Shown here one piece after another: positions 15,961-52,920 of a stretch of DNA of 64,000 nt. The stretch is from Candidatus Gastranaerophilales bacterium. Its GTDB lineage: Bacteria; Cyanobacteriota; Vampirovibrionia; Gastranaerophilales; Gastranaerophilaceae. The notes under the pieces were generated by a model. The model had not been told where the DNA came from and searched no databases. It saw only the letters and a program-made list of their open reading frames with translations. Within the stretch, counting starts at the first letter, position 1. Each line of letters opens with the position of its first letter. The position numbers were made by a program, and so were the translations under genes. The DNA is taken from the NCBI GenBank assembly GCA_944324135.1, contig CALUVE010000010.1:1-64000 (forward strand), given 5' to 3'.

Positions 15961-16020
15961 GGGTTTATACAGCAAATTCCACAAAACATATTAAGACATA
16001 TCAAGTTTGCCGTCATAACA
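15961..16020 (+). repeat. Partial copy of the 152-bp MITE-like element (R2)
   Basis: The sequence from 15961 matches the left end of the element at 48351 (GGGxxTATxxAGCAAATTCC, then CACA and a run resembling the next 15 bases). The rest has decayed. It lies between ade and the efflux gene. Confidence 0.5.
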
Positions 16021-17661: not shown

Positions 17662-18336
17662 TTACAATTTAAACCTTGTAGAAAAATTCAGCTGAGAATG
17701 GGGTGGTTTTACTGATTCAGAGAACATAACATGACTTGCGCCGACATTAAAATTAACCCTGTCATCATTAAAAGGTTTGATACTAAAAACAAATTCACTT
17801 TTTTTATTTTTTTCAAGAAAATTTGTTGAATAAATATTTTGGATAGACAAATGGTCATTCAATTTATACTCCGGAGAAAAAGCCAGCGTTCCCTGTCCGC
17901 GCTGCTGCCACGAGGCAAAATTTTCATTGTTAAATGAGGTGTCAACGGATAGCTTATTTTTTTGGTATCTGAAGAAAATAGTTTCCGATTGCTTATAATC
18001 ATCAGGTTTTACTGACGCATCATATTTTAGTCCGTAAGAAAAATCACCGGCAGTCTTTTCTTTTTCAAAAGACATCGCGTGAGGGTCATACGGATTTTTG
18101 TTAATATAATCATGAATATTCTGCGCATCAATCTGTCCGGAATTTTGTTCAGCCTCCAAAGCAACCTCATTTTCAACCTGCTCGCGTGCAGTGATATTAG
18201 TAACAAGTTTGGTATGTTCCAGCACAACTACATCAACATTTTCAGCCTGTTGTCCATACGCAGGCATAAAAAATGTTAATCCGGCATATATGAGCAAAAC
18301 TGCTGCGCTCAATATTTTTCTTCCAGCTATTCCCAT
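17662..18336 (-). CDS. Small exported protein, possibly outer-membrane beta-barrel
   Basis: I place the start at 18336. From there the protein opens with a clear signal peptide (basic GIAGRK, hydrophobic SAAVLLIYAGLTFF, then PAYGQ and probable cleavage). The mature part, about 195 residues, alternates polar and hydrophobic residues near the C-terminus and ends in NFSTRFKL, like a small beta-barrel. An upstream in-frame ATG (18420) would place a repeat element inside the gene, which argues against it. No ribosome site is seen; a TATTAT box lies 6 bases before the ATG, so the mRNA is probably leaderless. Function unknown. Confidence 0.7.
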   Translation of the reverse strand: MGIAGRKILSAAVLLIYAGLTFFMPAYGQQAENVDVVVLEHTKLVTNITAREQVENEVALEAEQNSGQIDAQNIHDYINKNPYDPHAMSFEKEKTAGDFSYGLKYDASVKPDDYKQSETIFFRYQKNKLSVDTSFNNENFASWQQRGQGTLAFSPEYKLNDHLSIQNIYSTNFLEKNKKSEFVFSIKPFNDDRVNFNVGASHVMFSESVKPPHSQLNFSTRFKL

Positions 18337-18342
18337 AATCTT

Positions 18343-18371
18343 ATAATATAAAAAAATTCCAACTTTAGCAA
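18343..18371 (-). promoter_or_regulatory. Leaderless-type promoter of the exported-protein gene
   Basis: On the minus strand TTGCTA (18371-18366), 17 bases, TATTAT (18348-18343), 6 bases, then the ATG at 18336. There is no room for a 5' leader. Confidence 0.55.
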
Positions 18372-18383
18372 ATGTTAAGTATG

Positions 18384-18536
18384 CGGGCTTATATAGTAAA
18401 TTTCGCAGGAGACTATACAAAGACTGTCATTGTGAGGGTTTTAACCTGAAGAATCTTTTTTATCAGTACACTTCGCTAACGCTTAGTACTACGTAGTTTT
18501 TTAAAAAATTTTAGTGAAATTTGCCAAATAAGTTCC
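18384..18536 (+). mobile_element. MITE-like element R2 with 8-bp target duplication
   Basis: The element of about 152 bp begins GGGCTTATATAGTAAATTT and ends with the imperfect inverse (AAATTTGCCAAATAAGTTCC). It is flanked by perfect direct repeats TAAGTATG at 18376-18383 and 18537-18544. The interior carries a GTCAT..GTGAG / CTTAGTACTACG-type hairpin shared with the copies at 48351 and 52797. It has no coding capacity. Confidence 0.7.
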
Positions 18537-18591
18537 TAAGTATGTTATTAAACTATAAAATGTGTTATCATATAAAATAAAGGATGTAAAA

Positions 18592-48350: not shown

Positions 48351-48502
48351 GGGACCTATGTAGCAAATTCCACAGATACTATTAAAAGCCTGTCATTCTG
48401 AGGGCTTTTGCCCGAAGAATCTTCCTTATTTAGATACTTCGCTATCGCTCAGTATGACGTAATTTTGAAAAATTTTTTGTGAAATTTGCTATATAAGTTT
48501 CC
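48351..48502 (+). mobile_element. MITE-like element R2, full copy
   Basis: A 152-base element begins GGGACCTATGTAGCAAATTC and ends AATTTGCTATATAAGTTTCC, an imperfect inverted repeat. The interior holds GTCATTCTGAGGGC..., GAAGAATCTT and GCTCAGTATGACG, which can pair as a hairpin. Runs of A flank both ends, so a target duplication cannot be delimited. It has the same length as the copy at 18385-18536. Confidence 0.75.
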
Positions 48503-48568
48503 AAAAAAGATTCCCCGCTTAAAATATACACAAGCGAAGAATCTTTTTATATATCATTTTATAAAATT

Positions 48569-52796: not shown

Positions 52797-52920
52797 ATAA
52801 ATTTTTAAAACTGCGTCATACTGGGCGTTAGCGAAGTTTCTCAATAAAAAGATTCTTCGGACTTTAGTCCTCAGAATGACGGATTTTTATAGTATTAGTG
52901 GTATTTGCTACATAAATCCC
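52797..52920 (-). mobile_element. MITE-like element R2, copy with one end lost
   Basis: Read on the minus strand it starts GGGATTTATGTAGCAAAT and contains CCGTCATTCTGAGG, GAAGAATC and CTTCGCTAACGCCCAGTATG like the full copies. The right terminal repeat is missing. It lies just upstream of the leader promoter at 52933. Confidence 0.65.

Follow-up and report, generated by a model that had tools for sequence, protein, structure and literature searches.

A short inverted-repeat element with IS1595-type ends and enclosed REP-like hairpins in Candidatus Gastranaerophilales

The R2 element and its copies

The window, a stretch of 64,000 nucleotides from a genome of Candidatus Gastranaerophilales (gut bacteria related to cyanobacteria, placed within Melainabacteria by NCBI), contained a short repeat, termed R2, in two full copies, one copy with a lost end, and a single-end remnant (Table 1). 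The genome of the window (G000) comprised 1.82 Mb in 47 contigs and was 99.88% complete. The original prediction gave 152 bases to both full copies; this length was correct for copy 2, while copy 1 is 153 bp long, starts at 18384, and directly abuts both of the perfect TAAGTATG repeats that had been predicted around it. The predicted third copy was recovered with a single intact end on the reverse strand, and the predicted remnant as a single end.

Table 1. Coordinates of R2 copies and their parts in the window
Feature	Position	Strand	Basis
R2 copy 1, type-A MITE, 153 bp	18384..18536	+	sequence, genome matches, duplication, empty site
Left 8-bp target duplication TAAGTATG	18376..18383		single copy at empty site in G003, G001
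Right 8-bp target duplication TAAGTATG	18537..18544		flank comparison, empty site
Left terminal inverted repeat CGGGCTTATATAGTAAATTTC, copy 1	18384..18404	+	end-pattern search
Right terminal inverted repeat, copy 1 (reverse: GGAACTTATTTGGCAAATTTC)	18516..18536	-	end-pattern search
First REP-like hairpin, copy 1 (GTCATTGTGAGGG...GAAGAATCT)	18426..18456	+	copy alignment
Second, inverted REP-like hairpin, copy 1, degraded	18465..18492	-	copy alignment
R2 copy 2, 152 bp, flanks AAAAAAAA / AAAAAAGA (7/8 match)	48351..48502	+	missing at same place in G002
First REP-like hairpin, copy 2	48392..48422	+	copy alignment, pairing
Second, inverted REP-like hairpin, copy 2	48432..48458	-	copy alignment, pairing
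R2 copy 3, retaining only the end at 52900-52920	52797..52920	-	end-pattern and genome matches
Single-end remnant, R2-type; 2 mismatches to end pattern	15961..15982	+	end-pattern search

The inverted ends of R2 are approximately 21 bp long, with the consensus end GGGAYTTATATAGCAAATTYCAC, and no open reading frame (ORF) of at least 80 aa in the ORF list of the window is contained in its 152-153 bp. Rfam gave a single match on the window, a tRNA, and none for R2. An ORF at 17662-18420 has its listed TTG start (18420) within R2, and this start is therefore probably an artefact. The search for further copies, which had been proposed as a check, gave 18 matches in the genome with copy 1 as the query and 26 with copy 2. 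Additionally, the end pattern was searched allowing up to three mismatches, with the reversed pattern as a control, and gave 69 matches versus 25 in G000, 82 versus 0 in G003, and 34 versus 0 in G018. R2 is thus short, non-coding, present in multiple copies, and bounded by terminal inverted repeats, as are miniature inverted-repeat transposable elements (MITEs).

Flanking 8-mers were compared at 66 loci from G000, G003, and G018, of which 58 had two ends, against 2000 shuffles of the partners. Of the 58 two-ended copies, 30 had adjoining 8-mers that differed at no more than one position, whereas the shuffles gave 1.0 such copies on average and never more than 5. These results bear out the earlier description, in which R2 is non-coding, has GG-ended inverted repeats, and makes 8-bp duplications, and such duplications occur at other copies as well as at copy 1. 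A comparison of empty sites in relatives had also been proposed as a check, and in G003 and G001, both of the same genus, the site of copy 1 is uninterrupted with one TAAGTATG, which is a clean empty site. At the place of copy 2 in G002, a short terminator-like hairpin was found and R2 was absent, the flanks being too diverged for a base-exact empty site. The copies of R2 differ among genomes of the same genus, and many are decayed. With target duplications and an empty site in addition to the features above, R2 is a genuine MITE and is largely explained: the parasite is of a known kind, but both its passenger and its partner are unusual.

A terminator-like hairpin (AAAAAGATTCCCCGCTT...AAGCGAAGAATCTTTTT, 48503-48550) adjoins copy 2, and its A-run is the duplicated target of that copy; the hairpin in G002 without R2 is similar to it.

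IS1595-family transposons with the same ends

An exact scan of the GTDB collection with the 23-base end returned 83 stretches, whose listed source titles were Candidatus Gastranaerophilales, Ca. Adamsella avium, Ca. Scatousia, 'uncultured bacterium', and one Muribaculaceae MAG, in which the match is terminal on a contig of 6.3 kb. The 87 ends in these stretches were sorted by script into 44 of type A (the R2 type), 18 of type B (a second MITE type, see below), 21 transposon ends, and four unclear ends; by eye, two of the 21 transposon ends (L196 and L221) and three of the four unclear ends (L222, L233, and L260) were type-B-like. Eight of the 83 stretches encode an IS1595-family transposase, and in all eight the end forms the right boundary of the element. 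Seven of these transposases showed 71-84% identity, and the eighth, a fragment of 179 aa, showed 69%.

The IS1595 DDE domain (PF12762) was present in 18 of the 192 genomes of the order. The transposase was assigned to the ISXO2-like DDE family by PF12762 (7.8e-34) and NCBIfam NF033547 (155.7 bits, cut-off 75), and the PF12762 profile spans the predicted DDE domain end to end. An R2-like end (at least 19 of 23 bases) was found downstream of the transposase gene at 11 of 18 IS1595 loci and was not found at the other seven. The end GGGACTTATATAGCAAATTCCAC lies beside the transposase with 23 of 23 bases at four of the loci (L154, L155, L157, and L158), where homology between copies stops at the end or within a few bases of it; L157 and L158 have a common outer flank and are not independent for this boundary. 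Related ends (19-20 of 23 bases) lie beside seven further loci. L157 (G059) and L158 (G160), whose genomes are labelled as different genera, agree at every base over the right part of the transposon and the next 77 bp outside it; this identity could stem from a host element common to both, from mixed binning, or from transfer in recent times.

Transposons of the IS1595 family have GG-type inverted ends and make 8-bp duplications, and both features were observed in all five complete elements found in relatives (Candidatus Gastranaerophilales). These elements are 11,672, 11,626, 7,953, 8,151, and 8,698 bp long, and their perfect duplications are TAATATTT, TAAAAAAA, TTTTTGGA, AAATAAAA, and AAATAAAT. 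A DUF2130-type gene (verified by Pfam in one element) lies at the left of all five. At the right stands the transposase, accompanied by a small ORF, one copy of which was compared with Pfam and NCBIfam and gave no match; in the CANAIK element, one further ORF follows beyond these. The middle part varies among the elements; it was read in four of the five (all but CANAIK), and restriction-modification genes were identified in these four: G105 carries an EcoRII-C endonuclease, a C5 methylase, and a nicking-type endonuclease; G003 a C5 methylase and a type II endonuclease; G160 an Eco57I-type IIG protein and a PLD/SNF2 helicase; and CASDPF, judged from position and the start of the sequence, cargo like that of G160. 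R2's own ends stand on both sides of the G160, CASDPF, and CANAIK elements (23 positions, save one C/T position), so that R2 has its ends in common with an autonomous element. The G105 and G003 elements have the end variant TATATCGCAGTTTACAC, and the end of the resident transposon in G003, GGGACTTATATCGCAGTTTACAC, differs from that of R2.

A search of the genome for a full-length insertion sequence with the same ends had been proposed as a check. Such elements were found in the relatives described above and not in G000, which has no IS1595-family transposase and retains, as a relic, 116 bp of the left end of the partner with 87% identity (C2:1763 onwards, L019). The transposase was not confirmed on any viral contig, and among 311 plasmid records IS1595 relatives occurred only at less than 60% identity, the best of which, from Bacteroides faecis, has plasmid transfer genes as neighbours and shows no such cargo.

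IS1595-type elements with passenger genes between their ends have been described, namely tISCpe8 and MTnSag1/tISSag10 (PMC5704250). The partners found here resemble these forms, as far as the available part of that source describes them, in the PF12762/NF033547 DDE transposase, inverted ends, target duplications, and passenger genes, but differ in their size of 8-12 kb, the constant DUF2130-type gene, the transposase accompanied by a small ORF, the restriction-modification genes in four of five, and the existence of a non-coding relative, R2. Large IS1595 transposons in Melainabacteria were not found in the open-licence literature; such elements, four of five with restriction-modification genes, are now described in uncultured gut Melainabacteria.

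REP-like hairpins inside R2 and a sister element

The interior of R2 consists of two inverted hairpins between A/T-rich arms. Hairpin 1 reads CGTC-ATTCT-GA-GGGC-loop-GCCC-GA-AGAAT, and hairpin 2, in reverse, CGTC-ATACT-GA-GC-loop-GC-GA-AGTAT. The tag columns C41, G42, T43, and C44 (copy 2 numbering) were conserved in at least 90% across 32 copies. The internal hairpin that had been predicted is well supported, since copy 2 folds at -51.3 kcal/mol versus -25.6 (sd 3.7) for shuffles (z -7.0). The REP hairpins were 94.9% paired, and double changes in their stems showed a modest excess (6 cells versus 1.8 in shuffles, with 3 of 500 as high), whereas no covariation beyond shuffles was found for the whole-element hairpin (93 and 83 of 500 as high).

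The CGTC/TGTC tag with an A-T first pair, which marks published CGTC-type REPs, is present in type A at positions 41-46 of copy 2. The type-A stem is not an uninterrupted stem of 8-9 bp with a loop of 4-5 bases, but has 5 + 4 pairs with a two-base mismatch between them, and type A is therefore called REP-like only. The tail of the type-A repeat reads CTT, where published CGTC-type REPs have a short tail that is mostly CCA. In some R2 copies, the loop of the second REP-like hairpin contains a palindrome of about 44 bp (ACTCTGCC...GAGAGG), seen in G000 at L004, L009/L027, and L040 and also within the relic stretch L019.

The type-B MITE has the same left end as R2, with 38 bp at 87% to the left end of the transposon, and encloses a different pair, GTC-ACCCTGAACTTGTTTCAGGGT and GTC-ATTCCGAACTTGTTTCGGAAT, which reads as an 8 bp stem with a 5-base loop. 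Four type-B copies, two from each of G000 and G003, have perfect 8-bp flanks (L023, L030, L109, and L115). Another insert occurs in type-B loops of G003; in both MITE types, hairpins are nested in hairpin loops. In the same genome, the 8.7-kb IS1595 transposon is inserted right beside the right end of a type-B MITE (L176:4167-4419), its duplication beginning just past the last base of the MITE.

The type-A pair also stands free in G004 and G020, where 20 stretches were examined. R2-like ends on both sides beyond shuffles were found in one of the 20 (L331); at L340, an R2-like end reached p = 0.04, but the match falls within the REP pair. Considering the interior, type B, and the free pairs, R2 is a combination of transposon ends and a REP-like pair rather than a transposon that has simply lost its interior. 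The two RAYT-like Y1_Tnp genes of G000 (C34:1138-1464 and C7:34228-34443) have no neighbouring REPs. The CGTC-tagged pair, the second MITE type with a common left end, and the large cargo partner, which mostly carries defence genes, lay beyond the view of the original prediction.

Mobility of R2 and its relation to known REP systems

On the strength of sequence comparison, R2 is very probably a non-autonomous MITE with IS1595 ends that is moved in trans by a visiting partner and holds REP-like passengers inside. This reading builds on directly established features, namely the ends, the 8-bp duplications, the copy number, the empty site, the boundary identity with the partner, and the left-end relic in its own genome. 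The IS1595 transposase of a visiting partner would bind the 21-23-bp ends of R2 in trans and would move or copy it into A/T-rich 8-bp targets; the partner would later be lost, leaving R2 copies that remain and decay, and the CGTC-tagged REP-like hairpins would spread as passengers within R2. It is possible that R2 affects neighbouring genes through a transcribed hairpin, by being terminator-like or by insertion in a promoter region.

The presence of R2 and of the transposase was compared over the 192 genomes, with the full-span R2 count taken from the strongest matches (up to four candidates scored per genome). Among the matches listed, 17 genomes had full-span R2, 18 had PF12762, and only G003 had both, versus 1.6 expected by chance (Fisher p = 1). 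No IS1595-family transposase was found in the nearly complete G000, and none in G018 with its 35 R2 matches. From this rare co-occurrence, we infer that the MITEs outlive a transposon that comes and goes, which suggests that they may record past visits of a transposon since gone.

Elements of the ISL3 and IS256 families also have GG ends and 8-bp duplications, and the end style and duplication length of R2 fit both; ISL3 had been named in the original prediction as a fitting example. Nevertheless, movement by a transposase of either type is extremely improbable. The ISL3 domain PF01610 was absent from all three genomes searched (G000, G003, and G018) and was found in four of 14 control genomes, the IS256 domain PF00872 was likewise absent from the three genomes with its positive controls present, and the ends of R2 (GGGACTTATATAGCAAATT) match IS1595 elements exactly, in 23 of 23 bases, so that the ISL3 suggestion is not retained. 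We also give little credence to the REP-like pair itself being the real mobile unit, a REPIN that depends on a tyrosine transposase of the RAYT type, with the R2 ends secondary. RAYT-like Y1_Tnp genes are present in G000 (2), G003 (2), G004 (1), and G008 (3), and the pairs stand free in G004 and G020, but the 8-bp duplications and the empty site coincide with the outer ends rather than with the REPs. A RAYT gene flanked by the same REPs was not found at any of the eight Y1_Tnp loci; only L268 in G008 has REP motifs in reach, of other sequence, and L264 shows one non-REP match. Moreover, the copy-rich genomes G018 and G020 lack Y1_Tnp.

Alternatively, R2 might be kept as an RNA element through its hairpin, acting as a terminator or mRNA stabiliser, with transposition only its history. 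The strong whole-element fold, the paired REP stems with their excess of double changes, and the proposal that REPs act in RNA (PMC3733652) are in agreement with such a role, but the whole-element hairpin does not covary beyond shuffles, copies vary between genomes of the same genus, and many are decayed. A retained RNA function is thus unlikely as the explanation for R2, though less so than the two transposase alternatives, and movement in trans by IS1595 transposons remains the preferred reading.

REPINs are inverted pairs of REP hairpins that form mini-mobile DNA (PMC3116915). R2 resembles them, as characterized in the available part of that paper, in both respects but differs in that no RAYT link was found and its mobility would run through the outer ends of a DDE transposon. 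REPs have been sorted into GTAG and CGTC classes by Di Nocera et al. 2013, and the CGTC class was reported without a dedicated transposase in the available part of that paper (PMC3733652). The R2 pair shares with CGTC-tagged REPs the CGTC/TGTC tag, the A-T first pair, the inverted dimers, and the lack of a flanking tyrosine transposase, but differs in the GA/GA mismatch of the type-A stem, the tail, and the placement of its dimers between the transposon ends of a MITE that shows 8-bp duplications. A concrete transposase family is now offered for a repeat of this class, so that the spread of such REPs can go to bench test. No mention of IS1595 was found in the available part of a MITE review (PMC10969869), no open-licence paper joining MITEs, IS1595 ends, and CGTC REPs was found, and a short-motif search gave no related paper among the matches listed by title and abstract.

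In Halothiobacillus neapolitanus, CGTC-1 dimers lie inside GGG-starting palindromes of 41 bp (PMC3733652). As in R2, REP dimers are enclosed there by a GGG-starting inverted repeat that never occurs without them, while neither a transposase nor a target duplication is reported for these palindromes in the available text. We tentatively propose, as a speculative and rather doubtful generalization, that CGTC-type REP dimers spread enclosed in end shells of unrelated DDE transposons, with shells and pairs exchanged and with the palindrome-enclosed REP dimers of H. neapolitanus and Anabaena variabilis as further cases. If this were true, R2 with its IS1595 ends would be the case with a named partner, types A and B would exemplify the exchange of shells and REP pairs, and the traffic of defence transposons would seed regulatory hairpins across genomes.

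In G020, which represents another family, three of the nine free REP-like pairs (L340, L341, and L345) lie within inverted arms of 29-39 bp that are locus-specific. These arms recall the published palindromes in which CGTC dimers are enclosed.
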